DNA of 64,000 nucleotides from Cafeteria roenbergensis. Lineage: Eukaryota; Sar; Bigyra; Bicosoecida; Cafeteriaceae. The notes beneath the pieces are model-generated. The model saw nothing but the letters and a program-made list of their open reading frames with translations. It did no database searches and was not told the DNA's origin. Below, piece by piece: positions 1-64,000 of the stretch. How positions within the stretch are numbered: the stretch's first letter is position 1; every line of letters begins with the position of its first letter. The position numbers and the translations under genes are program-made. Location of the stretch: contig VLTN01000043.1 of NCBI GenBank assembly GCA_008330645.1, forward strand, positions 62,001 to 126,000. The letters run 5' to 3'.

Positions 1-2750
1 CCTGGCCCATCCAAGGCAGCCCCCTTCGAGGCCTGGCCGCGGTGCGCGGACGCCGACCTGCCGGCAGAGGCTGCCACCCGCGCCAAATCCGAAAGGCCGC
101 CAATTGCGCTTCGCGGGCTACGCCCAGCCGCAGCAGGCTCGCCCCGCGCAGCACCCCCCGGCCCGGAGCGGCCCCGGTGCCAAGCGGCCTCCCCGCGGGG
201 CGCCGCGCCAAACATGGCCGGGCCGCCGGCTGCCCAAGCCCTCGCGAGCGCAAAGGCGGCCACCTGGGAGCTGTGCCCGGCGCTGGACAGGCTCTGCTCG
301 ATGGGGCCGATGGGAGCCCACCCCGCGGGCCCCCCTGCCAGGGCCAGGAGAACTGCCGCCAGCGATGCGATGAGCGGCGGCGGCAGTTCCGGCTGCGGGG
401 TCTGGCCTTGGTCAGCCTGGGAGGCGGCGCTGCTGGGCAGCAGCTGCGCGCCTCGCGCTGGCGCGGCAGAGGCGCTGGTGCTCGCGTGGCCGTGGGAGTC
501 GCTTCGCAGCCGGACTGCGCCGACCGCAGGCGAAGCAGTCCCCATCGTGCCGTCGCCGAAGAGGGAGTCGATGATCGATCGCCTGGCCAACACGTCCGCG
601 ACCGAGCCGCTCGGCTTGGAGCTGCCAGCAGGACCGCGCATCGTCGTCTCGCCGTCCCCGACGGGGCACCAAGGCCCGCCCCAGTCAGTCAGCGTCGTGG
701 CCGGGGCCCGCAGGCGCCTGAGCTCCTTGCGGAAGCAGGTCAGCGCCAGCAGGCGCGGCGCGGTCGACGGGTGCCCGACGTCGCGAGGGTGGGACGCGGG
801 CGCGCCGTGGGAGGGGGCGCCGAAGACTGCCCTGCGCTCCGCCGCGTCGGCCGGGGCGTCCATCGCGAACGCGTGGCAGAGGGACCACGCGAGCGACGGC
901 CCCTGCACCAGGAGCGGATTCGACCGCGGGTCGAGCAGGCCTGGCGAGCCGCTGAGGCCGGGCAGCCGCGACGCCGCGTCGTCCACGAAGAGCTGCAGCA
1001 CGCCAGCCGCAGCCACGTTGGCAGCAGCTGGGCTCTCCGCGCGCAGCTCCTTCGCTCGCTGGGCCAGGGCGGCGGCTCGAGAAGAGAGGCTGGGCGGCGC
1101 CGCTGCGGCCTTGGCCGCCGGCAGCTGCGGCGGGCCGGTGCTCGGCGGCAGCTGGGGGGCGGCGGCGCGGCCGTGAGCCACCGCGTGAGGTCCAGGGGAG
1201 AAGGGCACCGGCTGGGGCAGCATCGCGTCCGTGGGAGCCGGGAAAGGCTGCCTGGGATTGCCCGGCCACGGGCCAGTCGCGTCGCTGCCCCCGCCCACGG
1301 ACTGCGCGGTGCCGATGGGCAGGCCGAACCCGTGCTCCGAGTCGAGGCTGGTGATGCCCACTACGAAGCTGAGGTCCCTCCCGTCCTCGCCCAAGCTCTG
1401 CCTGAAGCGTGGGGCGACCTGCGAGGCGCCGTGCGTCGCGCTGCCGATCGAGAGGGGGCCCCGGGCAGCGACGCGCTCCGTGCCGCCGAGGTGCCGCTGC
1501 GCTGGAAACGAGACCCGCTGCTGCGCAGCAGGGGGCCGCGCGCCTCCGCCCTGCGCCCTGCCGCGGTTGCCCCCCCAGGGCCGAGCGCCTGGGCGAGGGC
1601 CGGAGTCGCTCGGGGCCTGGCCGGCGCGCTGAGCGTGCGGCGGAGCCTGCGGGCTGAAGGAGCGGGGCGCCGCCGCGCTGCGTCCTGCTTGCGGCCGCTG
1701 CCACGGCGCTCGATAGTACGACGCCAGGCCTGCACCACCTCCGCCTCCGCCTCCGCCTCCGCCTCCGCCATCCACACCGCCGCCCGCTCCTCCGCTGGCG
1801 GCACCATTGCCGCGGCGAGCGTCGCTCCGGCCGTGGCCGGTCGCATCGCTAGCTCCATCATCCATGGGCTCTGCCGTGTGGTGCGACTGCTGGCGGACGG
1901 CTTCGAGCGACTCGGCGGCGAGCAAGAGCGACGTCAGAGACCTGGCAGAGCCTCCCCCCGCAGCTGAGCCCAGGCCCAGGCGACCGCCTGCGACGCTACC
2001 GGGCCGCCCCTGCCCCTTCCCTGCGGCCGAAGAGGCCAGGGACTCCGGTCGGCCAGGCGCTGCCCCCGAGCGAGCCAGCATGCCTCCGTCCATTGTTCCG
2101 CCGTCGGCGTCTGGGGGCCCAAGTCCCGGCCCGTGTCCGTGATGAGACGCGGGACCACCGAACGACGCAAACCCATCACCTTGCAACGCCGTGCGGCGGG
2201 CGGCAATCTGGAGCGGCGCTTGGGGCGCCGCGAGCCGCCTGCTGCCGACTCCCCCCAGCATGATCCCGGCCACGGCCACGGCGTTCTCGCCGTCTCCCGG
2301 CAAGGAGGCAGGGCCGCCTGTGCCGAGGGCGTGCGAGAAAGCGGCGCTGGCGCCAGCAGCGTGGCCGGCGCTGTGCAACTGCGCTTCTGGAAGCCGCGGT
2401 GGCCGGGCTTCCACGGGCGACGAGTCCACACCGAAGCGGCCGGCGGCCGACTCCATCGCATCTCCGAGGCTGCTGTTCCGCCCTGCACTGCTTGCGTCGT
2501 TAACGCTGGCCACGACGTGCGCCGTCACTGCAAAGCGCGGGGACGCAGCAAGATACCCCGACGGGCCTCGCTGCGCATCCTGCGCCGAGCCGTGCCCGGC
2601 AGGCGCCTGCGCACTTGCCGCGCGGAGAAAGCCCTCCCCCTCGCGCAAGGCAGGCGGCTGCAGCGAGTGAGCGGGCGGAGTTGCACTCATCGCGGCCAGC
2701 ATGCCCGCCGCTGACAGGGTCGCCCCGGAGGCGTCCCCCGCGCGGTGCAT
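1..2750 (-). CDS. Large disordered protein of unknown function, partial (3' end off the left edge)
   Basis: I do not recognise this protein. The minus strand is open from a stop codon near 2832 to the left edge without any stop, more than 900 codons. The first in-frame ATG is at 2748-2750; other candidates lie at 2700-2702 and 2688-2690, the last giving a start MSATPPAHS. The protein is rich in Ala, Gly, Pro and Ser with a poly-Gly run encoded by a hexamer repeat at 1738-1770. Less biased stretches look folded, for example GPSLAWSLCHAFAMDAPADA and TCFRKELRRLRAPATTLTDW near 680-930, and ADVLARRSIIDSLFGDGTMG near 540-600. Long plus-strand frames over the same bases are shadows. The gene diverges from the plus-strand gene at 3272. 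A short upstream exon cannot be excluded, since several genes here have one. The existence of the gene is fairly secure; its function is unknown. Confidence 0.6.
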   Translation of the reverse strand, partial: MHRAGDASGATLSAAGMLAAMSATPPAHSLQPPALREGEGFLRAASAQAPAGHGSAQDAQRGPSGYLAASPRFAVTAHVVASVNDASSAGRNSSLGDAMESAAGRFGVDSSPVEARPPRLPEAQLHSAGHAAGASAAFSHALGTGGPASLPGDGENAVAVAGIMLGGVGSRRLAAPQAPLQIAARRTALQGDGFASFGGPASHHGHGPGLGPPDADGGTMDGGMLARSGAAPGRPESLASSAAGKGQGRPGSVAGGRLGLGSAAGGGSARSLTSLLLAAESLEAVRQQSHHTAEPMDDGASDATGHGRSDARRGNGAASGGAGGGVDGGGGGGGGGGGGAGLASYYRAPWQRPQAGRSAAAPRSFSPQAPPHAQRAGQAPSDSGPRPGARPWGGNRGRAQGGGARPPAAQQRVSFPAQRHLGGTERVAARGPLSIGSATHGASQVAPRFRQSLGEDGRDLSFVVGITSLDSEHGFGLPIGTAQSVGGGSDATGPWPGNPRQPFPAPTDAMLPQPVPFSPGPHAVAHGRAAAPQLPPSTGPPQLPAAKAAAAPPSLSSRAAALAQRAKELRAESPAAANVAAAGVLQLFVDDAASRLPGLSGSPGLLDPRSNPLLVQGPSLAWSLCHAFAMDAPADAAERRAVFGAPSHGAPASHPRDVGHPSTAPRLLALTCFRKELRRLRAPATTLTDWGGPWCPVGDGETTMRGPAGSSKPSGSVADVLARRSIIDSLFGDGTMGTASPAVGAVRLRSDSHGHASTSASAAPARGAQLLPSSAASQADQGQTPQPELPPPLIASLAAVLLALAGGPAGWAPIGPIEQSLSSAGHSSQVAAFALARAWAAGGPAMFGAAPRGEAAWHRGRSGPGGAARGEPAAAGRSPRSAIGGLSDLARVAASAGRSASAHRGQASKGAALDGP
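1738..1770. repeat. (CCGCCT)n hexamer run inside a coding region
   Basis: About five and a half copies of CCGCCT/CTCCGC. On the minus strand they encode a poly-glycine linker in the partial left-edge gene. Confidence 0.8.
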
Positions 2751-5364: not shown

Positions 5365-8300
5365 TCACTTGCCGTCGGCCAGGACGCGCGACTCGGTGCG
5401 GGCGCGCGCCACCGTGGCCGAGAGGGAGGAGGTGCGCCTCCGCTCCCCCTGGGCAACGGGGGCCTGTCCCCCCCACAGCAGCGGCTGGTGCGCCACGCCG
5501 CTCACGAATCGCTGAGACTCCTGCCCGGGCGAGCTGCGGCGCTCGACTCCGCCGTCGCCGCCGGAGCCGAAGGCTTGCTGGGCAGCGGGGGAGGCCTCCG
5601 CGCCGCCGCTGCGCGAATGAGGCCGCCTTGGGGGAGTCGCAAAGGCGCCCCCGCTGCCGCCGCCGCCCGGTGTGCTCGATCTCGACATGACTCCCAGCTG
5701 GCCCCGCGTCGGCGAGAACCCCGCGGAGGCGGCGCCCGCCGCGATGGCCGGGAGAGAGTACGTCGCGGCCTCTGCCAGGAGCCGGTTGAGCGACTCTGTG
5801 CCCTCCCTCCTAGTGTCGGCGCCGCCGGTGCTGGCCGCCCGGTCGGGAGACGCCGATCCGCGCAGCGACACCCGGCCGCGGGCCCGCGCAGCGCCGATGG
5901 GGGTCGATACCGCAGAGTCGTCCAGCCGTGCGAGGCCCGCCAGCCCTGCGAGCCCACCCGCGGACGCCGACGGCGTCATGCCGCGGCCCAGCGGGCTGAG
6001 GCGGAGCGGGGAGGGCGACTGGCGAAGCGACGACAGCCGCGCGCCGGGCGGCAGCCTGGAGGACGCGTCGCGGACGAAACCGCCACCCACGGAGTTGACC
6101 CGCTGCCTCGGCCCCAGGCCGGACATGGTCGAGGACACGACGGAGCCCGGCGTCCCGGGGGAGGGGGCGCCGGCTCGTCCGGTGTCTGAGGGTCCCGGCG
6201 AGGCGCCCCGGCCCGGCGTTGCCACGCCGAGCGGAGTGGAGCCGACCGAGTAGGCGGGCGGCCGCTGAAGCGACGCTGCGCCTCGGATGGGCAGCGGGAG
6301 GGGCGACTCCGCCCCATGCGCCGCCGCCGGCCCGATCAGCGGCGACGTCACCGACGCGGGGGCCCGGATGCTGAGGCCGCCCGCAACGCCGGGGGTGCCC
6401 CCCGGCACGGCAGCGACTGCGGCGGCGGGCTGGGCCGGCGGGGAGGGTGGCCTGGACGACGCCGTGGAGAGCGAGTCGTCGTCCCCGACCCGGATGACGT
6501 CAGCGTCCAGGGGGCCCTCCTTGCCCTCCGCGGCCGCCGCCCCCGCGGCAGGCGGCGACCTGCCCGCCTCGGGGGCCGCCGCGAGCCCCGGCGTGCGGCC
6601 GAGCAGCCCGGCCGGCGACGCCTTGTGCGGCAGCGGCGGCCTGGGCCCCGCCCTGCCATCGGGGCCCCTCGCCCCGGCCGGGGAGGGCGCAGCGGCGGGC
6701 GGCTCGTCGTCGTGGAACAGGGACCCGATGAACTGGTCCGCGTGGAAGCCAGCGCCCTCTGGCCCGTGCACAACGCCGTGGGTCATGGCTGGCTCTGCGG
6801 GCGGCCGGCCGCTGTCGAAGCGCCGGCTGTCGGCCCTGAAGGAGTTGGCGGTCGCGAGGCGCTGCTGCTTGGTGGTGGGCGGCGCCTGCTGCTGCGCCGC
6901 TGGGCTCCCCGACACGCTGCTCCGCCTGGAGCGGGCGGGCCCCAGCTGGGGCGACGCGCCGGCGCCGAGAGCGAACGCCACGCCGGGGGTGGACCTTCCG
7001 GCCAGAGGCGATGCTCCGACGGCGGGCGAGCCGTCGCCGCTCACGGGTGTGCCCCCTCGGATCGCGGCGGCGGTGGCCGCGGCCATGGCGCGCGCCCGCT
7101 CCGCCGCCGGCCCCGCCGCCAGTTTCCGGTCCGCCTTGGCCAGGAGCCGGCTTAGGTAGTCCTGGATGGCCTGCTCCGTCGGGACGGCCTCCGCTCCCTG
7201 GCCTACACGAAGTGTGCTGGCGGCTCTGGCAAGCTCTGCCGCCGCCTCCGCGCCGCCCAGGGCCTCCAAGTCAAGCTCCAGCCCGCCGGCGAGCGAGACG
7301 GACCAGCGGCGCTGGCGCCGCGACGCCGCCGGCTTGCCCCCCTCTGCCGCCGCGGCGCCGCTCGCGTCCCCCGCCCCCTCCTTGGCGGCGAGAGCGCGAG
7401 CCGCCTCGGCCTCGCCGGCCACCGGCTCCTCGCCGTCGCGCCCCTCGCCGCTGCGCTCCTCCTCGGCGGCCACCTCGGCCATGCTCTTGACAAGGCTCTT
7501 GGTGGTGCCCGCGGCCTGCGCCCACACAAAAAACTCCTCCCAGTCAACCCGGCCGTCGCCGTTGGTGTCGGCCGTCTTGAGGACCGCGGCCGCGAGCTTG
7601 CGCACGCCCCGCTTGCTCGGCCGGCGCGCGACCTGCCCCATGCGGTACAGGGCGCGGCTGGCGGTGTGCATGAACTCGCACAGCTCGTCGGCGTCGAGGT
7701 CGCCTCCGCCGTCGAGGTCGAACATGCGGAACAGCATGGCCGCTTTGGCCCTCGGGTCTCCGCGGGCGAACATGCAAAGCACCTGCGGACGGGCGCGAAC
7801 AGCCGCGCAGCCACGCACCTGGCAAGCTCGTCGCGTGCTGCCCAGCCCCCACGCGCGCAGGCTTGCCTGCGAGCATGGCTTCCGTGGCCTTGGGCCAGCT
7901 GCAGCTGTCGTGCGCCGGCAGCCCGAACCGACATCTCACCATGAACATCTCGTACAGGTTCGCCCGCAGCAGCGCCTCGTCCGGGGCTCCTGCATGGGCC
8001 ACTGCTGACCGCAGCGCTCGCGAGGGCGCCTCGGCGAAGACTTTAAACAGGAAAAGCGGCAGCGTCACGAACTGTCCGCCCTCGGCAGGCAACCCGGTCG
8101 CCTCGTCCACAGCCCGAGAGTAGCCGAAGATGTTGAAGAACTCGAACCGGTTCACGGACACCGAGGTCGACGGGGTGGCCTCAAGCAGCACGAACGCGCG
8201 CTCGAACGCGGACCACACGGAGGCGAGCTGCCACTTGCTGAACGCATCTCTGACGGTTTGCGCGAGCGCTTGCCTGCAAGGTAGGGAGACCACAGCCGGG

Positions 8301-8547
8301 GCGATTTCCACGAGCAGAGGAGAGGGGCGGCCTGGTTGCAGCCATTACCACCGCAGCGCGCGCGGCAAACGTCCCCGGGAGCGCGCACTGGGCCCGCGTC
8401 CGATGCGCGAGTGCGGTGCCAGGAGCGACGCCGGTGCCCGCGGGCCGCCCAGCCAGCGAGCCCCGCCAGACCGGGCCGGCCTCACCGTCTCGTCTGCGCG
8501 TCCGACCCTGGAGTGCCTCCCTGCTGGACCGAAGCGGCGCTCCCCAT
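5365..8547 (-). CDS. EF-hand protein with predicted N-myristoylation and a long disordered tail, 937 aa, three exons
   Basis: Probable calcium sensor. Exons on the minus strand are 8547-8486, 8273-7940 and 7782-5365. Both introns begin GTGAG and end CAG, the exon phases agree, and the total is a multiple of three. Exon 1 gives MGSAASVQQGGTPGS, which fits the MGxxxS pattern for N-myristoylation; the longer minus frame that starts with GTG at 8311 runs through intron sequence. A helical N-terminal region is followed by two EF-hand loops, DLDGGGDLDADEL and DTNGDGRVDWEEF, around residues 150-215, with acidic residues at the expected ligand positions. The remaining 700 or so residues are Pro/Ser/Gly/Ala-rich and disordered, with many S-P and T-P sites. 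This resembles membrane-tethered neuronal-sensor-like or calcineurin-B-like proteins only in the N-terminal part. I know no family with this whole architecture. It diverges from CFAP74. Confidence 0.85.
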
Positions 8548-9047
8548 GCAGTCAGCGCCTGGCCTCGGGGGGGGTTGCACCAGTGCCGGCCCGCCGCTGC
8601 CAGAGATGCGGCAGAGTCGCGAGCCTGCCTCCGCAAGGCGATTGCGTCGCTCCGGGCCGGCGTCTGCTTGTGGGTCCATTCCCCGAGGGCCAGTCCCCAT
8701 TGTGCTGCCTGCGCGTCTCGTTGGCCCCGGCTGCATCGCCGGGGCTGCCGGGGCCTTCGCTTGGCGCGTCTCGGGGCGGCCGCAGATACCGCCAACTGAG
8801 GCCGGCAAATTGGGTAGTCGTCGGTTCCAGAGTTGTGCGGCCGCCGGGGCTCTGCCCTCTGCAGTGAACTGCAGCTGCAAGCGCGAGCAGCGTCTGCACG
8901 CCGAGAGAGCGCAATCGCGGGGACGCGCAGGCTGCCGCCGGCACAGAAGCTGCAGCGGGATCCGCGAGGCAGGCCTCGAGCAGGAGACGCGAGCGGTTGG
9001 CAGCGGCGTCCCTGAGCGCCCGCGAGCAGAGCGGCCAAACGGCCACA
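8548..9047. promoter_or_regulatory. Divergent promoter region between the EF-hand gene and CFAP74
   Basis: 500 bp, GC-rich, with no TATA box or ORF I would support. It must contain the start sites of both flanking genes. Confidence 0.5.
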
Positions 9048-14745: not shown

Positions 14746-14774
14746 GCTTCGCACGCGGCGGCCCTCCGCGCCGC

Positions 14775-16619: not shown

Positions 16620-16864
16620 GACTCCCTTTCCGACGAGTCAGGAGTTTTCACGACGAGGGCCTCTCTCGTGCGCCTCGCTGTGGCAGTCCGGCGCCCGATT
16701 GCACTCTCCTTCGCGATGCGGCTCTACCTCCTCGCGCATCGCAAGGCAACTGCCCAGCGCGGCGCCAGCGAATGCCGGCGACGAAGCAGTGCGAGCAGCG
16801 CCACTGCCGAGGCGCGCGTACGTCCTGAGGACGGGGTGGGCCGGCCTCGTGGCGCCAAGCAGCC
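16620..16864. promoter_or_regulatory. Short bidirectional promoter (PRMT3-like / HAD phosphatase)
   Basis: 245 bp separate the two divergent start codons. It is slightly less GC-rich than its surroundings, with ACTCCCTTTCCGACGAG next to the minus gene. No TATA box was seen. Confidence 0.5.
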
Positions 16865-17762: not shown

Positions 17763-17803
17763 GGGGCCGTGGCTGCCGGCCCGCCGGCACGAGGCGCGGG
17801 CGT

Positions 17804-20756: not shown

Positions 20757-21184
20757 CCCAGGCACTCAGCTGCTCAGCACTTCCCAGGGCCCGAGGCCAG
20801 CCGGGGTGCCTGGGGCTCTCGGCACGCCGGGTGGCGCAGGCTGCGATTGCTTGCGGGCTGCAAAACATTCTGCGCCTCTGCCCGTTCCCGCTCGTTGGCC
20901 TGCCGTGCCCGACCGCAAACGGCGGCCAACCAGCCACAGCCAACCCTGGCCAGCCGAGACCGCCATGTCGTCGAGCGCGCAAGCAGCTGCAGAATCGTGA
21001 GACATGCACGCGGGCGCGACGTGGGGGGCGCGCGCCATGGCCGGGCCGCCTGCTGCATGCCGCGAATTGCGGGGCTGCTCGTCCAGGCGGCGTTTGCGCC
21101 GCGCGTGCGCACGGGCCGGTGGAACAGCAAGCTTGCGCACGACCGCGTGGGCCGCGCCCGAATCGCTGGACTCCTCGCAGGGCG
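20757..21184. promoter_or_regulatory. Divergent promoter region between CCDC146 and the gene at 21185
   Basis: 428 bp with both start sites. Moderately GC-rich, including the 10-base stretch GCAAAACATT near 20860. No further gene seen. Confidence 0.45.
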
Positions 21185-41046: not shown

Positions 41047-41083
<37 letters not shown>

Positions 41084-47079: not shown

Positions 47080-47267
47080 GGCGGCTCGGGGAGGCGGCGC
47101 AGGCGCCGGGCGGGTGGGACCGGCGGGCAGGGCCGAATCAAAAGGGTTGATTGCCCTCGTGGGTTGGCTGTTGCTCTGGGCCGACTCTGCCGTTGTGGCC
47201 ACCCGCTTGGCGCCCCGGATCGAGGCCCCGCGTCGGCACCCGCATCGCCCCGTGACGGGCGCGGGCC
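47080..47267. promoter_or_regulatory. Short bidirectional promoter (SNU114 / TTC29)
   Basis: 188 bp. Contains CTCTGCCG at 47185-47192 and an A-rich patch, AATCAAAAGGGTTGATT, near 47133-47150, one of the few AT-rich stretches in the window. The patch is partly palindromic (AATCAA...TTGATT) and could be a protein-binding site. Confidence 0.55.
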
Positions 47268-52000: not shown

Positions 52001-55000
52001 TGCTTCATATTCTGACTGCTTGCGCTCAAGCTCCTCACGCGCCTTGGCCGCATCAGCCTGGCTCGCCTCCAGCGCCGACTCCGCCTCCCGCACACGGCCC
52101 TCCAGCTCCTCACGCGCCTTGGCCGCATCAGCCTGGCTCGCTTCCAGCGCTGACTCCGCCTCCCGCACACGGCCCTCCAGCTCCTTACGCGCCTGGGCTG
52201 TCTCCTCCTCCCCGCGGGCTCGCAGAGACTCTGCCAACGCCACCGCAGCATCACGTGCCTTGGCCGCCTTCTCCAGGCTTGCTTCCAAGTCTTGCCGCCC
52301 TGCTTCATATTCTGACTGCTTGCGCTCAAGCTCCTCACGCGCCTTGGCCGCATCAGCCTGGCTCGCCTCCAGCGCCGACTCCGCCTCCCGCACACGGCCC
52401 TCCAGCTCCTCACGCGCCTTGGCCGCATCAGCCTGGCTCGCCTCCAGCGCCGACTCCGCCTCCCGCACACGGCCCTCCAGCTCCTCACGCGCCTTGGCCG
52501 CATCAGCCTGGCTCGCCTCCAGCGCCGACTCCGCCTCCCGCACACGGCCCTCCAGCTCCTCACGCGCCTTGGCCGCATCGGCCTGGCTCGCCTCCAGCGC
52601 CGACTCCGCCTCCCGCACACGGCCCTCCAGCTCCTCACGCGCCTTGGCCGCATCAGCCTGGCTCGCTTCCAGCGCTGACTCCGCCTCCCGCACACGGCCC
52701 TCCAGCTCCTTACGCGCCTGGGCTGTCTCCTCCTCCCCGCGGGCTCGCAGAGACTCTGCCAACGCCACCGCAGCATCACGTGCCTTGGCCGCCTTCTCCA
52801 GGCTTGCTTCCAAGTCTTGCCGCCCTGCTTCATATTCTGACTGCTTGCGCTCAAGCTCCTCACGCGCCTTGGCCGCATCGGCCTGGCTCGCTTCCCTCCA
52901 GCTCCTCACGCGCCTTGGCCGCATCAGCCTGGCTCGCTTCCAGCGCTGACTCCGCCTCCCGCACACGGCCCTCCAGCTCCTTACGCGCCTGGGCTGTCTC
53001 CTCCTCCCCGCGGGCTCGCAGAGACTCTGCCAACGCCACCGCAGCATCACGTGCCTTGGCCGCCTTCTCCAGGCTTGCTTCCAAGTCTTGCCGCCCTGCT
53101 TCATATTCTGACTGCTTGCGCTCAAGCTCCTTACGCGCCTTGGCCGCATCGGCCTGGCTCGCCTCCAGCGCCGACTCCGCCTCCCGCACACGGCCCTCCA
53201 GCTCCTCACGCGCCTGGGCCGCCTCCGAATCGCTGGCGCCAGCTGCCGCCTGTGCCGCCTTCAGGGCCTCGCCCTGGGCCTTGAAGCGTCCGACCAGCTC
53301 ACGCAGCTTCTCTACAGCCTGATCCTTGGCTGACGCATGCTTGACAGCCTCAGCCTGGCTCGCCTCCAGCGCCGACTCCGCCTCTCGCACACGGCCCTCC
53401 AGCTCCTCACGCGCCTTGACCGCATCGGCCTGGCTCGCCTCCAGCGCCGACTCCGCCTCTCGCACACGGCCCTCCAGCTCCTCACGCGCCTTGACCGCAT
53501 CAGCCTGGCTCGCCTCCAGCGCCGACTCCGCCTCCCGCACACGGCCCTCCAGCTCCTCACGCGCCTGGGCCGCCTCCGAATCGCCGGCGCCAGCTGCCGC
53601 CTGTGCCGCCTTCAGGGCCTCGCCCTGGGCCTTGAAGCGTCCCACGAGCTCACGCAGCTTCTCTACAGCCTGATCCTTGGCTGACGCATGCTTGGCAGCC
53701 TCAGCCTGGCTCGCCTCCAGCGCCGACTCCGCCTCCCGCACACGGCCCTCCAAGCTCCTTACGCGCCTTGGCCGCATCGGCCTGGCTCGCCTCCAGCGCC
53801 GACTCCGCCTCTCGCACACGGCCCTCCAGCTCCTCACGCGCCTTGACCGCATCGGCCTGGCTCGCCTCCAGCGCCGACTCCGCCTCCCGCACACGGCCCT
53901 CCAGCTCCTCACGCGCCTGGGCCGCCTCCGAATCGCTGGCGCCAGCTGCCGCCTGTGCCGCCTTCAGGGCCTCGCCCTGGGCCTTGAAGCGTCCGACCAG
54001 CTCACGCAGCTTCTCCACAGCCTGATCCTTGGCTGACGCATGCTTGGCCGCATCAGCCTGGCTCGCCTCCAGGGCTGCCTCGGCACTCGAGCGTTGAGCC
54101 TGAATTTGCTCGGTCAGCTCCTGCCGCATTTCGTCAAACTGGGCTTTGAGGTCGTCTAGCTCGGCCTCTGCACGGCTCGCAGCCAGGGCCGATTCGGCAG
54201 CCCGGGCGCTACCCTCGACGCCCCGCTTCGAGTCGGCCTCCAGTTCCGCCATTCGCCTTTGCACCTGCTCGAGCTCGGCCGCGACCGCAGCCCGAGCGCT
54301 GGCCGCCTGGTCAGCCAGCCTCTCGCTGGCTTCGGCCCGCTGCTTCAAGGCAGAGCTGCGGCGTTCTGCCTCGCTGCGAGCAGTGCTGGCAGCCTCAAGT
54401 CGCGCCTGCATGTCCGCCCGGTCTGCTTCCGCAGCCCGGCGGGCAGCCTCTGCCTCCTCCAGCAGCGCTGTCGCCTTTGAGGTCGAGTCTGCGACCTCGG
54501 CCTGGCCGGCTCGCTCCGCAGCGAGAGCTGCTTGGGCCTCCTTCAGCTGCTGTGCTTGCGCCTTGAACTTGTCCACGAGCGTGCGAAGCTTGGCAATGGC
54601 TGTGGCCTTGTCGGTCTTGGCCCTCTCAAGCTCGGCTGCGTTGGTGGCTGCTTCCAGCTTTGAAGCCTCGAGCATGGCTCTGAGCGAATCTGCACTGGCC
54701 CGGACGCTGGAGGGGGCGCCGCCAGCTTCGGAGGCCGAGCCGTCCCTGAGGCCGAGCAAATCTAGCTCTTGCACCGGAACCCTTGACTCCTCCCCCCCGC
54801 TGTCAGCCCCGCCACCCGCGGGCTTGTCTGCGCCGGCTGCCTTAAGGAGCAGCTCCATCCGCTCACTGATGCTGCGCATGGTCAAGCGCTGCGGCTGGGC
54901 CCCTGGGTCCGCACCAGAAGACGTTGGGAGCTGTGGCAGCTTCTTGTCCAAGAAGAGGAGCAGCTTGCGCTGTTGCGTGGTGGTGTTGTGGTGCATGCGG

Positions 55001-55368
55001 CTGACGGCATCCAGCTGAGCGCGCAGCTCGTCCGCGTCGGCAACGCGCCGCCGCTCGGGCGCAGCATCTGGTGAGTCGCCCGCCCCGCTCGGGTGCTCCT
55101 CTTGGGCAGTTGCGGCCAGACCCTGCGGGAAAGGCAGGAAGAATGCCAGGACGGATTGACAAGCTCGCCGGCCCACTGCGCCTGCTGCCTCGGAGCTTCT
55201 CGTGCCAGACTTGGGAGCCACTACAATGCTACTCAAGCAGCAGTGCGCAGCGAAAGCAGGGGCGGGTCGCTTGGGGGCAGTGGGAGGGCGCTTCAAGGCC
55301 AGCCTCGCACAGCAACGGCGCACCTGCCGAAATCTGTCGATCAGTGCCGTGGGGAAGAGCCCCGACAT
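49073..55368 (-). CDS. Giant coiled-coil protein built on a 25-residue repeat; reading frame broken at several points in the array
   Basis: Not a family I recognise. Exon 1 is 55368-55324 (MSGLFPTALIDRFRQ); the intron 55323-55123 has a GTGCGC donor and a pyrimidine-rich CAG acceptor, phase 0. A unique N-terminal part follows (LRAQLDAVSRMHHNTTTQQR, KLLLFLDKKLPQLP), then a coiled coil. From about 54060 down to 50030 the protein consists of copies of a 25-residue unit, AREELEGRVREAESALEASQ then ADAAK, 75 bp each. Two longer inserts recur at intervals: one with HASAKDQAVEKLRELVGRFK, one with KQSEYEAGRQDLEASLEKAA. A unique C-terminal coil (50030-49073) ends QQIGQLSAMLMRRG. The frame breaks near 53752, 52893, 51965, 51925, 51640 and 51005. 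Within each segment the same frame is clean, so either the assembly is wrong in the array or the gene is decaying. Likely a cytoskeletal rod. Confidence 0.75.
50030..54060. repeat. 75-bp tandem repeat array with higher-order structure
   Basis: About four dozen near-identical 75-bp units, each including CTCCAGCTCCTCACGCGCCT and GCCGACTCCGCCTCCCGCAC on the plus strand. Single-base differences are few (GCCTGGCTCGCCTCC against GCTTCC, CATCGGCC against CATCAGCC). Blocks of about 180 bp and 150 bp with their own sequences are inserted at intervals. The homogeneity implies recent unequal crossing-over or gene conversion. The array has no stop codons in several frames on both strands, which creates false ORFs. 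Confidence 0.95.
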
Positions 55369-55758
55369 TGCCGGGCTGGCAACGATGCGCCTTCGCGCCC
55401 GGGAACCCGGCTCCGCAAGTTCGGGGAGCCCGTGAGGTCCGGCTTGCGGGGTGTTTGCTGCGCCTCGCCAGGAGACCGCCCTGCCGCTTGCTCTGCTTCG
55501 CGCCTGGCGCGCGCTCCTCCGCTGGTTTCACGCTTGCCGTGACATCGCGGCAGCCAGGCACAGCTTCGGCCGCACGCGGAAGGTGCACTTCAGATGCGAT
55601 GGCGAAAGCAGCCAGAGGCGGGGACTCTTGCGAGACGCGGTTTCCCATCGTTCGACAGACGAGCACGAGCACGCGATACAGTCGCACCGCAACACGAACA
55701 GCAACACACATGCGGAGAAAGCACGGTCTTCGCGGTCAGAGAGTGACAGAGGGTGGGC
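55369..55758. other. Intergenic region between two same-strand genes, with CA-rich repeat
   Basis: 390 bp between the start of the repeat-array gene and the stop of RPF2, the only head-to-tail junction in the window. GACGAGCACGAGCACGCG and CAACACGAACAGCAACACAC occur at 55655-55710, like repeats seen where genes converge. No convincing ORF. Confidence 0.5.
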
Positions 55759-56877
55759 TCATGCGTCCGCCCGCCTGCTGCGCTTGGCGCGCTCGCTTCC
55801 GGCCTCCGCCGTCTCCGCCGCAGCGTCCTCGTCCTCTTCGGCAGCTCCGCTGCGGCGCTCGCGCCTGTCGAACTTGGACGCCCTGTTGGCACGCAGCTTG
55901 AGCGTGCTAAAGTCCTGCCTCTCCATGTGCACACGGCCGTAGGTGTCGCCCACAGCGTCCTTGGACATGTTCTTCTTGCGCGAGGCGCGGGCCTGGGCCG
56001 GAATGGTGGTGGCTGCCTTCATCATGGCAGCATCTGCGGGCTGGTAGCGGCGAAGGGTTGCGTCCATGTGGAAGCCCATGTCCCGGAGCGCGACCTTGGG
56101 TGTCTTGGTGCCGGAGCGACGCAGGTCGATGGTGTAGGAGCGCAGATGGAACGTCTCGGCAGACGCCTGCGTGACACAGATGCACCAGCTGAAGGAAGTG
56201 AGCAGCATGCCATCTCCAGGGCGCACGGGCACGCCGCGGAACATGTCCAGGAAGATGTTGCGCAGGGTGGCGAACTGCGGCTCCGTCTCCCAGCCGGCGC
56301 CCACGAAGACCATGCAGGGCCGCATGCCGATCTGGGGCGTGGCCCCCCTGGACTCGGCCACGGCGGTGGAGCTGCTGCCCGCGGCAGCAGCGGCAGCGGC
56401 AGCGGCGGCAGGCGCCTCCTCGCTCTCCTCGTCCTCCTCGCCCTCCTCGCCTTCGACTTCCTCTGCGGGCGCGGACATGTCCGCGCCGGCTGTGGGAGCC
56501 TCCGACAGCGACCCCACCCCGGTCAGGCCAAGCTCGACCATGTCGAGAAGCCTGCCTCCGAAGCAGCGGCCGAACACCAGGTTGAACGGGCGCTTCTTCG
56601 AGTGGCTCGCCACAGCAAACAGCCCTGTCCCGTTCTTCTGGGACAGGAACTCCACCGGCTCTGCGTCCTCGAACGGCCGGATGAGGTTGCGGCGCATGAA
56701 GGTCTTGGAGTGCGGCTTGGTCAGGATGGAGAGGTCGCGCAGCACGCTGCGCAGCTCGTCCGTGGACTTGGTGCCGCGAATGCACATCAGGCCCTTGGCG
56801 CCCTCGAACACGGTCGACTCATCCCGGCTTTCCAAAATCCGCTTGGTTTTCCCGTGCGAGCGGCCGCGCTTGGGCAT
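55759..56877 (-). CDS. RPF2: Ribosome production factor 2 (RPF2), Brix-domain protein, 372 aa
   Basis: RPF2 works with RRS1 in the nucleolus to bring 5S RNP into pre-60S particles. The start at 56877 gives MPKRGRSHGKTKRILESRDE, the basic N-terminus typical of the family. The Brix domain spans about 25-300: VFEGAKGLMCIRGTKSTDEL, LSILTKPHSKTFMRRNLIRP, FEDAEPVEFLSQKNGTGLFA, ASHSKKRPFNLVFGRCF, and in its second half SYTIDLRRSGTKTPKVALRD and MGFHMDATLRRYQPA. All these match known RPF2 proteins. An acidic then poly-Ala insert (EEVEGEEGEEDEESEE and about ten Ala) at about 135-170 is not in yeast or human. The C-terminal tail is basic and acidic with GRVHMERQDFSTLKLRANRA and nuclear-localisation-like ends. 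Single exon. Confidence 0.95.
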   Translation of the reverse strand: MPKRGRSHGKTKRILESRDESTVFEGAKGLMCIRGTKSTDELRSVLRDLSILTKPHSKTFMRRNLIRPFEDAEPVEFLSQKNGTGLFAVASHSKKRPFNLVFGRCFGGRLLDMVELGLTGVGSLSEAPTAGADMSAPAEEVEGEEGEEDEESEEAPAAAAAAAAAAGSSSTAVAESRGATPQIGMRPCMVFVGAGWETEPQFATLRNIFLDMFRGVPVRPGDGMLLTSFSWCICVTQASAETFHLRSYTIDLRRSGTKTPKVALRDMGFHMDATLRRYQPADAAMMKAATTIPAQARASRKKNMSKDAVGDTYGRVHMERQDFSTLKLRANRASKFDRRERRSGAAEEDEDAAAETAEAGSERAKRSRRADA

Positions 56878-57862: not shown

Positions 57863-60800
57863 ATGCAGGCCCCAGGCCAGGCCGGCGGGTGCTCGGTTCC
57901 CCAGCTGCTCGCCTTGCTCCGGGCGGGCGAGCCCGTTCCTCCCCATTTGCGCCAGAGCGTGGAAGAGCTCGGCGCGGCGCTGTCTCACGGCCACCCATCG
58001 CAACCCGCGGTCGGGAGCCCTTCGCGCGCAGGACTTGCTGCCCCTGGGGCCCTTGCCAGGGTGCCGGCGAGGACGTCGAGCTCGTCTGCGGCGCCAGCGG
58101 GCTCGCAATCGGCTGCGCCCGCGGCACCCACCGCCCAGGCCGGCTCCGAGCCCCGGAGCCCCGGCAGCAAGACCATTGTTTCTCTTGACAGCCGTGGCTG
58201 CGAAGTCAAAGAGGTGTGGGAGAGCAACGGCATGGTCACGCGGCAAGAAGTTGTGGACGTTTACATCTTCAAGCCCGACAAGCCGCCGTCGCGCCCTAAG
58301 CGAGGCTACGTCCCTGGCGACCCCACGGTCAAGGACGTGTCGATCATCGCGCCCAAGCCCGAGCGACGCGCCGATGTGCTGGCTGCATACCTCAACCGGA
58401 CGATTGCGTTCTCCTTTTCGTCGGACGACATCAAGAACCGCAAGCGAGTGCAGTCGAAGCGCGATGCAGAGGTCGTGAGGGTCAAGAAGCACCTGCTGCG
58501 GGGCTTCCTCGCCGAGCGAGCTGGCGCACGCAGGCGAAGCCTCGTGCGTGCGGCGGAGGCGCCCGCCGGCCCCTCAGCCAGCTTGCTGCCGGCGGCGACT
58601 GTCTCTGAGCTCGTCGGCGCTGCGGCGCCAATGCCTGGCGGCCAAGGCAATGGGCGCGCCAGCGAAGCAGAGGGCTTCCATGCTACCAGCGTCTCGACGG
58701 GGTGGATTGCCAGCGGCTTCGGCCCGGCTGCCCAAGGAGCCAAGGAGTGGGGCTTTCAGGCCCACACCATGGCTCCAGTGGACGCCGGCTCACGCAGCGA
58801 CGTCGCGCAGCTCTCGCGCCGCGGCCATCGGGACGCCTCCGCTGGGTCAGCCATGCGCGCGGCTTCGGGCTCTGCCGGAGAAAGTTCGACGTCGCAGGTC
58901 TGGTCGGGCGGTTTGGAGCGAACAGAGGGCAGCGGCAGCGACCCAGCCGCTGGCCGCAGCTCGGCCTCGCAAGTGTCTTTGGAGGCGGACAGGGCCGCCC
59001 AGACTCAGAGGATAGGCTACGAGGGCATGGCGCCCTCCAGCAGCGCGGCCGTGGCTGCTCAAGGGCGCGCTCAGGGCTCGCTCGTTGGCGGCGCGGGGCC
59101 CGGGCTGCTGTCTGCCAGGATACACCACCAGGCCTCTTCGGAGCGCGGCCACGGCTGGCAACCCAGTACGACGACCCAGGCCTCGGCAGTACCCCACGGC
59201 GGCGCTGTCGCGTCCTCGGTGGGCTCAGGCCAAGCCTTTCGCCCTCAGCCCGGCGTCGCACCTGGAGGCTTCATTCCCCCGTCGTCAGCGTGGCTGGGCC
59301 ACTCCGGTCCTCATCACCCCTATCAGCCGCAGCTCCAGCTCCAGCACCAGCACCAGCACCAGCGGCAGCATCTGCAGCTGGTCGGCCAAGGATACGCAGC
59401 GCCCCACCCTGGGCTCGACCATCCCTCAATGCAGTATGCCGGAACATGGCAAGCGTATGCCCCGCCTCAACCGCCTCCCTCCTACACCGCCGTCCCAACG
59501 GCGACTGCCTGGCTGCCCCACGTGCAGCCTGCCCTGCAACACCGCACCGGTGCGGCCGAGGCGACCTTCAGGGTCCCCGTTCCTCCGACCGGCCTCCGCC
59601 CCGGCCCCGGCCCCGGCCCCGGCCCCCGCGAGCAGTTCGCGGCCCACGAGCAGTGGCATCCGCGCCCTGCCGCCCCTGTCTCGGCAGGGGTGGGCCTTCC
59701 CCAGTGGGCCCCTGCGCCGCCTTCGATGTTCCTCGGAGCGAGCAGCGACCCTGCGGTGCCCGGGGCTAGCGACGGACCTGGAGACGGAGGCAGCGCCGTT
59801 TCCCCCCGCGCAGCAGCTCGGGCTGCGGCATTCGGCCCTGCTCCTGACGACGCGGGCATGAGCAGCAGCAACGAGGCTATGGGACTGGCCAGCCACCCCT
59901 TCTCCGTCGACGCGGGGGGCGGGAGCAGACAGCTTGCCTCGCAGCCAGCAGCCGCTGAGCCCGAATCCCGGCACCGCGTCCGCACCGCCCCCTGGGCGGC
60001 CATCAGCGCAGGCTCAGAGTCTGCACGCCAGCGCTCCGCCGCGGCATCGGAGTCGTCCATGTCTGGCATCGGCGCTCTGCACCCCGACCGTGCCGCCGCG
60101 ACAGGCTCGGCCTCTTCCTCCTCGGGCGTGCTCGCGTCGCATCTCGGACCGCCGCCCCCGCACAGCCTCGGCTCCGTGGCCTCGCGCCCGCTGCCTCCGG
60201 CCACAAGGGCCTCGGCCGCCACGGCATCGGGCCAGCCCTCCGAGCCTGCGGCTGGCGCCGCAGCTGGGCAGCACGCCGCGCTCGTCGCCGCGGCCACAGC
60301 CGCCAGGCCGGCCCGTTCGGCTGGCCTCGGTGGCGACGCCTCCCCGCATCTGACCGGCCTGCTGGAGACCTGGCAGCCGCCCGCCGGCGTGCCCTCCCTT
60401 GCCGACGGGGCCTTGAGACAGTGGCTGTTCGACCCCGCCCACATCGTTTGCCCCTACCCGACCATGTCGGAACTCAACGCCCTCGCCACGCACACAGGCT
60501 GCTCCACCAGGGCGCTGGAGCGCTGGTTCGCCAAGGCGCGCCCGCAGCTCTGGGCGCCTGTGGTTCGCACGGTGGTTGGCAAGCCTAGCTCGCCCTCGCT
60601 GGTCGACTCCGACGTCCACCCAAGCAGCACTGGCCACGCCGACGCTGCTGATGAGTCGCCCCCCCCGGCCGCTCAATCCAACCCGCCCGCCTCGGGCCTT
60701 GGGCCAAAGACGTCAGTGCCGTTCGACGAGGCCCGGGTGGCTGCTGCCACGGCCCGCCGCAGGAAGCGCCGCCTCGTGCGGGAGCGGGACTCGCGGGCCG

Positions 60801-62062
60801 CCGCCGCGGCGCGTGAGTCAGTTGAAACAGACAGCTCCCAGGACGAGGGTGAGCACGATGCGCCGCAGGCTCAGAAAGGGCGCACGGGCGATGCGCAGTG
60901 GAGCCGAGCCCAGGCCCGCGTCGCCGCGTGCAGCTCCTCGCCTGCCGACGGCGCGGAACGTGGCCCCATCTCTCCGGAAGCAGAGCATGCGCTGCGAGCG
61001 GTCAAGGAGCGACTGTGCGGTCAGTCGGCCCGAAAGGCGCTGATCGGCGCGGGGGCCGTTGCCACAACAACTCGAGCCGCGTTCCAGACCCGTCCCAGAG
61101 CCCTGCCCGCGGCCCAGTCAGGACCAGGCGCTGCTGCAAACAAGGCCGCTCGGGGGCCCGGTGGCCATGGCAGCGCCGCAGGCCGCGGCGAGGCGGGAAG
61201 CAACGGTGACAACAGCCTGGAAGGCAACGCTGGGTCCGAGGAGAACGGCAGCAACGGCTCGAGCAGCAATGGGTCCGGCAGCAACAGGTCATCCCACCGC
61301 GCAAGGGCTGCCGCGATGCGGGAGCCGGCACAGCCCCCCATGGCCCGGGCCTCGGGCAGCATGCAGCCTCGTTCAGACCAGTCAGAGTCAGAAGCCTCTT
61401 CGCAAGCCAAGCCTAGCAGCCCAAGCTCCAGCACTGGCATGGAAATGGCAGCGGTGGCCGAAGCTGCTCGGCCCGGCCCCGGTGAGGCGCTGGCAGCCAG
61501 CGCGGTGGAGCACGCAGCCAGTCCTGACGCCGCAGCGTCAGCAGGCCTGCCGCGCATGTCCGCCCTGACCCGGCGCCTGCTCGGCGCCCGCGCGGGAGCA
61601 TGCGTCTCGGCGCTGGTGGCGCCCCAGGCGACGTCTGGGGGTCCGGCCAAGGCCCCTCACCGCCCCACCATGCGGCACGGCCTCCAGCCCGCTGAGTACA
61701 ACCAGCTTGCCAAGCGCTACGCCGAGGCCGTGGCTGGGTCCATCGGCTCGTCCGACTTCAGCTGGTCGAACCACGACCAGTCCAAGGGGGGCTCTAGCCG
61801 CAGTCGGTCGACGCCTCACACCTCGAAAGCTGGCGTGGATAGGATGCCTCCATCGGCAACGGACGCCGCCCACCTGGGCATGGGGACGTCGGCTGCTGTG
61901 CTGAACGCGGCCACTTCAAGTTCTGACCCGGCAGCCCAAGAGCGCGCGGCTTGCGCTGCCCCAGCGCCTGTCTGTGCCGAAAAGCGCAGCCGGGACGATG
62001 GCGATCAGCCTGGCAGCGACGCCAGCAGCGCCGCTGAGCCAACCGCCAAGCGGCGAGCCTGA
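57863..62062 (+). CDS. Large disordered protein with a TALE/KN-type homeodomain, 1399 aa
   Basis: A putative nuclear DNA-binding regulator. I chose the ATG at 57863 (MQAPGQAGGCSVPQLLALLR); the frame further upstream has no support. Near residues 110-230 is an ordered domain that I cannot name: TIVSLDSRGCEVKEVWESNG, QEVVDVYIFKPDKPPSRPKR, then basic helices with NRKRVQSKRDAEVVRVKKHL. A long disordered part rich in Gln/His/Pro/Ala/Ser follows (QLQLQHQHQHQRQ near residue 490). The homeodomain, about 842-895, reads ALRQWLFDPAHIVCPYPTMS, then ELNALATHTGCSTRALERWF and AKARPQLW. The PYP loop between helices 1 and 2 and the WFxxxR of helix 3 are KN/TALE hallmarks; the usual N of WFxNxR is replaced by A/K (WFAKAR). 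A basic ARRRKRRLVRERD segment follows near 970. The rest is disordered. The homeodomain is certain to about 80 percent; DNA contacts may be altered. Confidence 0.75.
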   Translation: MQAPGQAGGCSVPQLLALLRAGEPVPPHLRQSVEELGAALSHGHPSQPAVGSPSRAGLAAPGALARVPARTSSSSAAPAGSQSAAPAAPTAQAGSEPRSPGSKTIVSLDSRGCEVKEVWESNGMVTRQEVVDVYIFKPDKPPSRPKRGYVPGDPTVKDVSIIAPKPERRADVLAAYLNRTIAFSFSSDDIKNRKRVQSKRDAEVVRVKKHLLRGFLAERAGARRRSLVRAAEAPAGPSASLLPAATVSELVGAAAPMPGGQGNGRASEAEGFHATSVSTGWIASGFGPAAQGAKEWGFQAHTMAPVDAGSRSDVAQLSRRGHRDASAGSAMRAASGSAGESSTSQVWSGGLERTEGSGSDPAAGRSSASQVSLEADRAAQTQRIGYEGMAPSSSAAVAAQGRAQGSLVGGAGPGLLSARIHHQASSERGHGWQPSTTTQASAVPHGGAVASSVGSGQAFRPQPGVAPGGFIPPSSAWLGHSGPHHPYQPQLQLQHQHQHQRQHLQLVGQGYAAPHPGLDHPSMQYAGTWQAYAPPQPPPSYTAVPTATAWLPHVQPALQHRTGAAEATFRVPVPPTGLRPGPGPGPGPREQFAAHEQWHPRPAAPVSAGVGLPQWAPAPPSMFLGASSDPAVPGASDGPGDGGSAVSPRAAARAAAFGPAPDDAGMSSSNEAMGLASHPFSVDAGGGSRQLASQPAAAEPESRHRVRTAPWAAISAGSESARQRSAAASESSMSGIGALHPDRAAATGSASSSSGVLASHLGPPPPHSLGSVASRPLPPATRASAATASGQPSEPAAGAAAGQHAALVAAATAARPARSAGLGGDASPHLTGLLETWQPPAGVPSLADGALRQWLFDPAHIVCPYPTMSELNALATHTGCSTRALERWFAKARPQLWAPVVRTVVGKPSSPSLVDSDVHPSSTGHADAADESPPPAAQSNPPASGLGPKTSVPFDEARVAAATARRRKRRLVRERDSRAAAAARESVETDSSQDEGEHDAPQAQKGRTGDAQWSRAQARVAACSSSPADGAERGPISPEAEHALRAVKERLCGQSARKALIGAGAVATTTRAAFQTRPRALPAAQSGPGAAANKAARGPGGHGSAAGRGEAGSNGDNSLEGNAGSEENGSNGSSSNGSGSNRSSHRARAAAMREPAQPPMARASGSMQPRSDQSESEASSQAKPSSPSSSTGMEMAAVAEAARPGPGEALAASAVEHAASPDAAASAGLPRMSALTRRLLGARAGACVSALVAPQATSGGPAKAPHRPTMRHGLQPAEYNQLAKRYAEAVAGSIGSSDFSWSNHDQSKGGSSRSRSTPHTSKAGVDRMPPSATDAAHLGMGTSAAVLNAATSSSDPAAQERAACAAPAPVCAEKRSRDDGDQPGSDASSAAEPTAKRRA

Positions 62063-62402: not shown

Positions 62403-64000
62403 TTACGCCACGTCCTCCACGCGCTGCTGGGCGAGCAAGCTCTCCACCTGCTTGACAAGCCCCTTGCCGACCGTGCCTCGCCTGGAGGCCACGAGATCGT
62501 GCTGCACGCGCCTCACGTCGGCCTTGAAGCGCTCCTTCTTCTCGTACCGCATCGACGCCGCGTTGTAGCGCACGCCGAGGATGGAGAAGCCCTTCTCGTC
62601 GGGGTTGTAGGAGAACCCGGGCGCCTGCTCGGTCACCATGGTGGTCGAGTCCATCGTCACCCGCTCCAGCGCCATGTTGAGAGTGCGCTTCTCGGGACGC
62701 TGGCCCTGCCACCAGTTTCGCCACGAGGGAACAAGCAGCCCCGCCTTGCGCATCTGCTTCATCACCATCTGTCCCTGCTGCCGGCCCCGGCGCGTGTGCA
62801 CCCTGGCCAGGGCGTCGTCCCGGCGCTCGTCGTCGACGCCAAAGTCTTCCTCGTAGTCGTCGTCGTCGCCAGCGGCAATCGCAGCGGCGGCGGCGCGGGC
62901 GCCGCCACGGCGGGCATCGATGCCGGACACGGCTGACCGCCCCCCCGCCGACGCAGCGGAAGCCCCGCCGTCCCCGCGCCGGCCCGAACCCTTGACCTTG
63001 GCCCGGGGGCAGAGCTGCGCCACCTTGGAGTGGCCCCACATGCCGCACTGCTCGCAGATGGGGAACTCCTCCCCCAGAACCATGACGGTTCGGCTGCCGT
63101 CTTGCGCCGCCGCTTCTGCAAGGGCCCACGTCTTGAAGCCCCACTGAGCTAGCAAGCACTCCTTCCCGCCGCGCAGCAGGCGGCGCAGCCGGTCGCGCTC
63201 CAGCAGCCGCTCGGGGGCCTCCCGGTCCGTGCCGCCCCGCCGGGGCTGGCCGCGCTTGCGCCCGATGGAGCGGAGGTCCACGCCGAAGCGCTCTGTGAGC
63301 CAGGTTCGCTCCACGGCCAGCCGGTCGCGCGAGAAGACGACGCGGGCCACCTCCTTGCCCGACGGCTGGATTTCCCTGGTGACACGGCGAACGAGCGCGT
63401 TGGCTGGGGGGGCGCCTGCGGCAGAACGCACCTCCTCGTCCTTTGCATCGCGCAGCCACGCCGTCAGCTCGGGCGCGGTGAGGTGGGGCTTGACGCAGCC
63501 GCGGCGGAGCTGGAGAAGCGGCGTTGCAGGCTGGGCGCGGAGTTGCGGGGGCACGCCGCGCGCCGTGGCTTCGGCCTCCGGCAGCGCAATTGTGGCTCCC
63601 TGCCTCGCCTTGCGCACCGAATCCCTCGCGACGGAGATCGCCGCGCGGGCCATATCGCCCGCCATGCCGTTTTCGATGGCCGTGCGGTGGGCCAGCTCTG
63701 CGGCCTGGAGCTTGCGCTCCGCCAGCGCCAGCTCCTTGCGAGAGCCGCCGAGGAGCTTGACCGTGACGCCCCACCGGCGGGCCATGACCAGCCATGTCGG
63801 CTCGTCGCTGATGCTGCCTGTGAGGCCCTTGCTCGCCCTCATACGGTCCAGGTCCCTCGCCTCTGCGCGCTTCCGCATGATGGAGTCCATTCCCGGGGCG
63901 CCGGTGACCTGTGCGAGGGAGTGCTTCATCAGCGCGGCCTCCGTCTCGCGCGTGCTGTTCTCGGCGGAGGCTCCCATGCCGACTCGGGGCACCACCGGAG
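62403..64000 (-). CDS. TAF1-like protein with CCHC zinc knuckle, C-terminal part (5' end off the right edge)
   Basis: Likely the C-terminal part of the TFIID subunit TAF1 or a relative. The frame is open to the right edge; the only apparent start near the edge is a GTG, so the gene continues outside. The strongest clue is the knuckle CEQCGMWGHSKVAQLCPRA (C-x2-C-x4-H-x6-C), the same spacing as the TAF1 knuckle CGACGAIGHMRTNKFCP. Before it are TREIQPSGKEVARVVFSRD, comparable to the TAF1 strand before the knuckle, and charged helices such as KELALAERKLQAAELAHRTA. After it come an acidic linker and a C-terminal domain (SWRNWWQGQRPEKRTLNMAL, GFSYNPDEKGFSILGVRYNA) ending VEDVA, with no bromodomain. 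The alternative is an unrelated nuclear protein with the same knuckle. It converges on the homeodomain gene. Confidence 0.6.
   Translation of the reverse strand, partial: PVVPRVGMGASAENSTRETEAALMKHSLAQVTGAPGMDSIMRKRAEARDLDRMRASKGLTGSISDEPTWLVMARRWGVTVKLLGGSRKELALAERKLQAAELAHRTAIENGMAGDMARAAISVARDSVRKARQGATIALPEAEATARGVPPQLRAQPATPLLQLRRGCVKPHLTAPELTAWLRDAKDEEVRSAAGAPPANALVRRVTREIQPSGKEVARVVFSRDRLAVERTWLTERFGVDLRSIGRKRGQPRRGGTDREAPERLLERDRLRRLLRGGKECLLAQWGFKTWALAEAAAQDGSRTVMVLGEEFPICEQCGMWGHSKVAQLCPRAKVKGSGRRGDGGASAASAGGRSAVSGIDARRGGARAAAAAIAAGDDDDYEEDFGVDDERRDDALARVHTRRGRQQGQMVMKQMRKAGLLVPSWRNWWQGQRPEKRTLNMALERVTMDSTTMVTEQAPGFSYNPDEKGFSILGVRYNAASMRYEKKERFKADVRRVQHDLVASRRGTVGKGLVKQVESLLAQQRVEDVA

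Follow-up and report, generated by a model that had tools for sequence, protein, structure and literature searches.

The DNA analyzed here, hereafter called the window, is a stretch of 64,000 nucleotides from Cafeteria roenbergensis (positions 62001-126000 of contig VLTN01000043.1, abbreviated C43, within a 36.3 Mb, 167-contig genome), and this work concerns the orientation of its genes, most of which lie on the opposite strand from their neighbors. Gene calling identified 22 genes in the order -+-+-+-+-+-+-+-+-+--+-. Twenty of the 21 pairs of neighbors switch strand, so that the gaps are divergent in 10 cases, convergent in 10 and same-strand in one. The genes are listed below with divergent gaps, in window positions; E is the expectation value of the Pfam match, and GCAGAG/CTCTGC is a short element considered further below.

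Gene 1, 1..1846, minus strand: extends left of the window to -4368; longest exon without Pfam match; leave-one-out score 200; several weak splice sites.
Gene 2, 1864..4888, plus strand: without Pfam match; leave-one-out score 181.
Gene 3, 5365..8700, minus strand: EF-hand protein, E 1.6e-9.
Divergent gap, 8701..9047, 347 bp: GCAGAG/CTCTGC at 8850, 8857 and 9026.
Gene 4, 9048..14504, plus strand: CFAP74-like flagellar protein, single exon, E 3.3e-28.
Gene 5, 14775..16619, minus strand: protein arginine methyltransferase, E 6.8e-20.
Divergent gap, 16620..16864, 245 bp: without GCAGAG/CTCTGC.
Gene 6, 16865..17533, plus strand: weak LNS2/HAD-like match, E 2.5e-5, below the curated cut-off.
Gene 7, 17804..20756, minus strand: CFAP58-like flagellar protein, E 3.8e-19.
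Divergent gap, 20757..20964, 208 bp: GCAGAG/CTCTGC at 20876.
Gene 8, 20965..22258, plus strand: very weak Mis12 match (E 0.0068), not counted as homology; score 110.
Gene 9, 22628..30060, minus strand: PH-domain protein, E 3.6e-17; five exons, some weak splice sites.
Divergent gap, 30061..30318, 258 bp: without GCAGAG/CTCTGC.
Gene 10, 30319..31333, plus strand: NDUS4 (complex I subunit), E 2.9e-13.
Gene 11, 31789..33626, minus strand: without Pfam match; score 108.
Divergent gap, 33627..33756, 130 bp: GCAGAG/CTCTGC at 33694.
Gene 12, 33757..34857, plus strand: without Pfam match; score 44.
Gene 13, 35315..36365, minus strand: ATG27-like, E 2.7e-9.
Divergent gap, 36366..36595, 230 bp: GCAGAG/CTCTGC at 36475 and 36488.
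Gene 14, 36596..38934, plus strand: TCP-1/cpn60 chaperonin, E 1.6e-141.
Gene 15, 39628..40110, minus strand: thioredoxin, E 3.1e-16.
Divergent gap, 40111..40272, 162 bp: GCAGAG/CTCTGC at 40165.
Gene 16, 40273..43107, plus strand: without Pfam match; score 160.
Gene 17, 43400..47079, minus strand: EFTUD2 (U5 snRNP GTPase), GTP_EFTU E 9.4e-36, EFTUD2 E 1.2e-15.
Divergent gap, 47080..47267, 188 bp: GCAGAG/CTCTGC at 47185.
Gene 18, 47268..48746, plus strand: TPR protein, E 6.6e-14.
Gene 19, 49073..55648, minus strand: repetitive, coiled-coil-like; F_actin_bind match (E 1.8e-5) set aside; internal introns doubtful.
Gene 20, 55759..56877, minus strand: Brix-domain protein, E 1.4e-28; with gene 19, the sole same-strand neighbors in the window.
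Gene 21, 57863..62062, plus strand: KN homeobox protein, E 5.7e-7; some weak splice sites.
Gene 22, 62403..64000, minus strand: DUF3591 protein, E 3.4e-16, which we take to be TAF1-like; extends right of the window to 69726.

The gap of 17 bp between genes 1 and 2 (1847-1863) probably results from a wrong start in one of these two weak models. Gene 19 carries dense tandem repeats at 50037-54072 (repeat units include 33, 42 and 75 bp), and a strong GC (guanine and cytosine) skew is found within it at 50001-54000. Scans of the window for tRNAs and Rfam families found nothing.

The genes were called by a self-trained hidden Markov gene finder that uses an order-4 codon-position model and splice sites, reads both strands with equal priors and was trained on C43:1-250000. 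It reproduced exactly the strand order proposed for the 22 genes in the initial annotation. This order was unchanged in eight settings and in four of a second series (two of which repeat earlier settings), which together ranged from sparse to very numerous gene starts and from common to very rare introns, and none of the window models splits under permissive-splitting settings. With strands drawn as coin flips, 20 or more switches among 21 neighbors have a probability of 22/2^21 = 1.05e-5, and when the 22 window strands were shuffled 100,000 times, 20 switches were reached once; the chance of about 1 in 100,000 and the chain of divergent and convergent gaps described initially are both correct. 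All 22 genes have leave-one-out coding scores of at least 37 nats and exceed the best opposite-strand frames by at least 35 nats. Raising the cut-off to 60 nats loses real short genes, such as that of thioredoxin, and lowers the switch count to 14 of 18.

The called strands were also compared with Pfam, by scanning, on the called strand, a single exon or a few exons of each gene. Matches above the curated cut-off were obtained for 14 of the 22 window genes, the LNS2 match of a fifteenth lying below it. Adjacent Pfam-supported genes switch strand in all eight pairs, or in 10 of 10 when the LNS2 gene is included. The F_actin_bind match of the repetitive coiled-coil gene at 49073, set aside here, is marginally above its cut-off (25.2 vs 23.6 bits); counting it gives 11 switches in 12 supported pairs, because this gene belongs to the same-strand pair of the window. 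Six further genes (the first two and those starting at 20965, 31789, 33757 and 40273) have no homology support from Pfam. The opposite strand was scanned against Pfam in one such stretch, 2687-4855, and gave no match there. Inverted duplication can be ruled out as the cause of the alternation, since Pfam-matched neighbors come from different families. The strong strand alternation of the window genes is thus confirmed as real.

A gene finder could nevertheless create alternation by merging same-strand neighbors or by calling shadow genes on the opposite strand. Ours is known to merge some of them: outside the window, the model C43:50173-54844 fuses a PLP-decarboxylase gene and an AAA gene, which separate under permissive settings. 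When the gene segments of C43 were flipped at random (12 flips), the called switch rate had a mean of 0.574 (highest 0.704) for a true mean of 0.526, because the finder merges some same-strand neighbors. Tested against this biased rate of 0.574, the 20 switches among 21 in the window still give p = 1.4e-4; the rate observed over the whole of C43:1-250000 is 47/57 = 0.82. Judged by their splice sites, the weakest window models are 1-1846, 22628-30060 and 57863-62062, and assuming one hidden same-strand merge in each of them gives 20 switches among 24 (p = 8e-4). Since the window models never split, their strands are backed by leave-one-out scores and Pfam matches, the gene density is close to the published one and the family-pair test described below does not depend on gene models, we consider an artefact of gene calling very unlikely. 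Roughly one in four splice donors predicted on C43:1-250000 is GC instead of GT (GCGAG alongside GTGAG) and predicted acceptors are mostly GCAG; the finder as trained puts no penalty on GC donors.

The prevalence of opposite-strand neighbors in the rest of the genome was evaluated without gene models. Nine Pfam families were matched genome-wide and reduced to 441 loci, the lists including the best 119 of 286 PF00069, 20 of 109 PF00004 and 19 of 106 PF00005 candidates scored; multiple matches of one gene were collapsed by eye to one entry before the strand test. Matches of different families less than 6 kb apart form 25 pairs, of which 20 lie on opposite strands (p = 0.002); the 25 pairs are spread over 20 contigs, and none lies within the DNA examined earlier. 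Opposite strands are found in 6 of 7 pairs when the matches are 6-8 kb apart, in 9 of 17 for 8-10 kb and in 47 of 97 for 10-30 kb. The 6 kb limit was a bin edge of an initial run with only the first seven families, in which 16 of 19 pairs below it were on opposite strands. Two domains within one gene can bias the test only towards the same strand. Same-family pairs less than 6 kb apart (6 of 15 opposite) mix tandem duplicates with multi-match genes and were set aside. The excess is present at short distance only, and the opposite-strand bias is therefore genome-wide and short-range. The genome-wide component of the alternation suggested initially is thus borne out: more than half of close neighbors are on opposite strands in the family pairs and on C43 (47/57), as also on contig C1 (15/22, not strong alone).

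The same searches revealed adjoining same-strand kinase matches, whose scores are close or identical, at C18:81054-84005 and C22:305729-309164. These are probably tandem duplicates, which would be one source of same-strand neighbors. An ABC-transporter domain match (C15:250154-250672) falls in an open reading frame listed with a length of 21,783 codons, which is either a gene of giant size or a repeat array rich in GC and open by chance.

Divergent gaps are short. On C43, their median length is 230 bp between start codons (n = 23) compared to 383.5 bp between stop codons for convergent gaps (n = 24; p = 0.0024). For every divergent gap of the window (10 of 10) and for 20 of the 23 on C43, the start codons are less than 1 kb apart, i.e. 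within the distance, taken here between start codons, that defines bidirectional pairs. Furthermore, the element GCAGAG/CTCTGC is present in 12 of the 18 C43 divergent gaps of 60-700 bp, compared to 4.4 expected by dinucleotide shuffling (none of 500 shuffles attains 12), and in 6 of 7 divergent gaps of C1 (2.5 expected, reached by 3 of 500 shuffles), which played no role in its discovery. Convergent gaps show no enrichment (7 of 22 vs 8.3 expected on C43; 1 of 5 vs 1.4 on C1). The element is non-palindromic and found in both orientations. Among the 12 C43 gaps that carry it, nine have a single instance and three a close same-orientation pair, one of them with a third instance near a start codon. 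Fifteen of 25 instances lie within the middle 40% of the gap (p = 0.04 for random placement). A longer form of 14 bases, GGCAGAGCCGGCGG, has 92 copies in the genome compared to 16 for its reversed control. Two other motifs, TTGCGT and TTGAGTG, are enriched within 200 bp after the predicted stops of the 58 C43 genes (16 vs 5.9 and 7 vs 1.4 expected) and may possibly constitute a 3′-end signal.

We rather favor the explanation that most genes are organized in head-to-head pairs sharing one short promoter, and that this gives the alternation. The two genes of a pair would share a short promoter region, their start codons being about 200 bp apart. As such a pair would read -+ in either orientation (it is inversion-symmetric), a chromosome tiled with pairs would alternate spontaneously, and one same-strand neighbor would be added by every isolated gene that has no partner; the window, which has one same-strand gap, would hold one unpaired gene. 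GCAGAG/CTCTGC, often found close to mid-gap, is probably the mark of a nucleosome-free promoter common to both genes, and a general factor would bind it. The promoter architecture evoked in the initial annotation is supported as a likely cause of the alternation by the short divergent gaps and the enriched element. We infer that a single nucleosome-free region is shared, that the element is functional and that pairing is the cause of the alternation and not the result of selection. Inversion-symmetric pairs sharing a promoter would provide a simple reason for alternating orientation, with no need for a rule along the chromosome, and the candidate element makes this idea testable.

It should be emphasized that several observations weigh against such a general pairing. 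Alternation is weaker on C43 outside the window, where 27 of 36 neighbors switch. Permissive splitting gives 47-49 switches of 64-69 for the whole of C43 and 27-29 of 43-48 (56-66%) outside the window. In the small sample C1:400001-500000, 15 neighbors of 23 switch when the C43 model is used, and 15 of 22 when the finder is retrained with filtering. Adjacent homology-supported pairs outside the window switch in only 5 of 12 cases, or 5 of 13 with the AAA gene counted apart. Those on the same strand are TPR-dynein, dynein-WD40, WD40-PLP-decarboxylase and AMP-binding-Lon on C43, and RCC1-ZIP, kinase-Rpn13 and Rpn13-AP-mu on C1. This sample is small and speaks against a strict rule. The initial statement that neighbors alternate almost without exception therefore holds in the window (20 of 21) but not elsewhere, where tandem runs occur: the TPR, dynein, WD40 (weakly supported), PLP-decarboxylase and AAA genes are consecutive on the minus strand of C43 before 55 kb, and the kinase, Rpn13 and AP-mu genes are in tandem on C1. 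Concerning the gaps, the tandem ones of C43 (median 421 bp, only 10 gaps) do not clearly exceed the divergent ones (230 bp) in length (p = 0.066). Tandem gaps, which also bear promoters, carry the element slightly above expectation (3 of 6 vs 1.7 and 3 of 5 vs 1.6), 6 of the 18 C43 divergent gaps are devoid of it, and 3 of the 6 element-bearing gaps of C1 contain two separate instances, ill-suited to one shared element. On C43 the longer form occurs twice, once in a divergent gap and once inside a predicted coding region. Finally, the density of the element per kb in all divergent DNA, long gaps included, is about that of coding DNA, and the element claim therefore rests on gap-wise presence.

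The gene models of C1 are poorer than those of C43. The retrained calls misplace a boundary near C1:401 kb, where RRM matches on the plus strand overlap a called minus-strand gene, and joint training on C43 and C1 yields 60 genes with 47 switches on the former and 23 genes with 14 switches on the latter. The GC content of third codon positions is mostly 0.64-0.80 in C1:400001-500000 compared to mostly 0.8-0.94 in the window, and codon bias therefore differs strongly between these regions. A GC-rich block at about 430-446 kb of C1 upsets gene calling.

The main rival of promoter-sharing pairs is selection against tandem neighbors, in which read-through over gaps of 100-500 bp would silence the downstream gene and shared promoters would be a by-product. 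Because two divergent gaps are always separated by a convergent one, and vice versa, the counts of both kinds differ by one at most, and counts alone therefore cannot tell pairing from the avoidance of tandems. Such avoidance would agree with the compactness of convergent gaps, whose median was given above, and with the presence of one tandem pair among 21 in the window. However, 6 of the 10 tandem gaps of C43 are only 110-484 bp long, so that short ones are tolerated, and it is the divergent side that is indicated by the element and by the shorter gaps there; we regard selection of this kind as unlikely. Alternatively, a genome-wide bias of about 65-80% combined with chance may be sufficient, the window being an extreme draw chosen for its regularity. 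This explanation, which is compatible with pairing, agrees with the 56-75% obtained on C43 outside the window and on C1, and we computed that, at a true rate of 80%, at least 20 switches of 21 are expected in about 6% of windows. It leaves the bias itself unexplained. We find it fairly plausible as a whole; it is probably part of the truth, and the window itself is probably a favorable stretch.

The organism belongs to the order Bicosoecida and its present species name is C. burkhardae, to which the BVI strain presumably belongs. The GC content of C43:1-250000 is 69.7%, and 58 genes were called in these 250 kb. According to passages of the genome paper (PMC6972860), the published BVI assembly comprises 36,327,047 bp in 170 contigs, with 70.1% GC and 8483 proteins, i.e. 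4.3 kb per gene, which is close to our gene density. The comparison with compact algal genomes made initially is not borne out: the source is a heterotrophic stramenopile, and a genome search for the light-harvesting family PF00504, the only photosynthesis gene family sought, gave 0 matches. Pavlovales (Diacronema lutheri), considered as source on account of the GC content, were dropped after this result. Pfam matches indicate that flagellar genes (CFAP74, CFAP58 and dynein heavy chain) are present.

Literature searches, which returned short extracts, found no report on gene orientation in Cafeteria: the word "strand" is absent from the passages of PMC6972860 searched, as are "opposite strand" and "bidirectional" from those of PMC8547959. 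Extracts concerning Coccomyxa contain nothing on gene orientation. No prior report of GCAGAG/CTCTGC turned up in these searches, none of which was aimed at this element. Alternating orientation, reported for a brown alga, is extended here to a heterotrophic bicosoecid with a small GC-rich genome. As a tentative extrapolation, the head-to-head pair might be the basic transcription unit, with up to about four fifths of the genes arranged around a shared GCAGAG/CTCTGC promoter at which one general factor would open chromatin for two functionally unrelated genes; this arrangement might date back to the stramenopile ancestor and be visible, less marked, in brown algae and possibly in diatoms as well. 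An ancestral origin would have implications for the evolution of gene order and promoters across stramenopiles.

The closest known case is that of Ectocarpus, a brown alga and therefore also a stramenopile. According to passages of its study (PMC7784034), 61.7% of its genes beside gaps adjacent to transcription start sites are in divergent pairs, and median gaps are 409 bp for divergent and 2293 bp for tandem neighbors. With regard to the coupling of transcription, chromatin and termination suggested initially, close divergent pairs of Ectocarpus have a common nucleosome-depleted region but uncorrelated expression. Cafeteria resembles this alga by the excess of opposite-strand neighbors and the short divergent gaps; its rate looks higher in two tests (20/25 and 20/21) but not clearly in the other samples, and its gaps, measured from start codon to start codon, are shorter. 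The genome of Ectocarpus is several times larger than that of Cafeteria. Opposite-strand starts less than 1 kb apart (start codons in the case of Cafeteria) are also a feature of the bidirectional promoters of animals, plants and fungi. In the consulted portion of a survey of 64 eukaryotes (PMC2871058), co-directional neighbors amount to about 50% in most species; less random orientation is named for Monosiga, Cyanidioschyzon, Thalassiosira and Cryptococcus, its direction being unstated in that portion. Thalassiosira is, like Cafeteria, a stramenopile. At the other extreme, the same portion gives 98% co-directional pairs for Leishmania (PMC2871058), so that kinetoplastid arrays share with Cafeteria a strongly non-random orientation, but of opposite sign. 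Taken as a whole, these comparisons make Cafeteria a further, and perhaps stronger, case of a known kind of alternating gene orientation.

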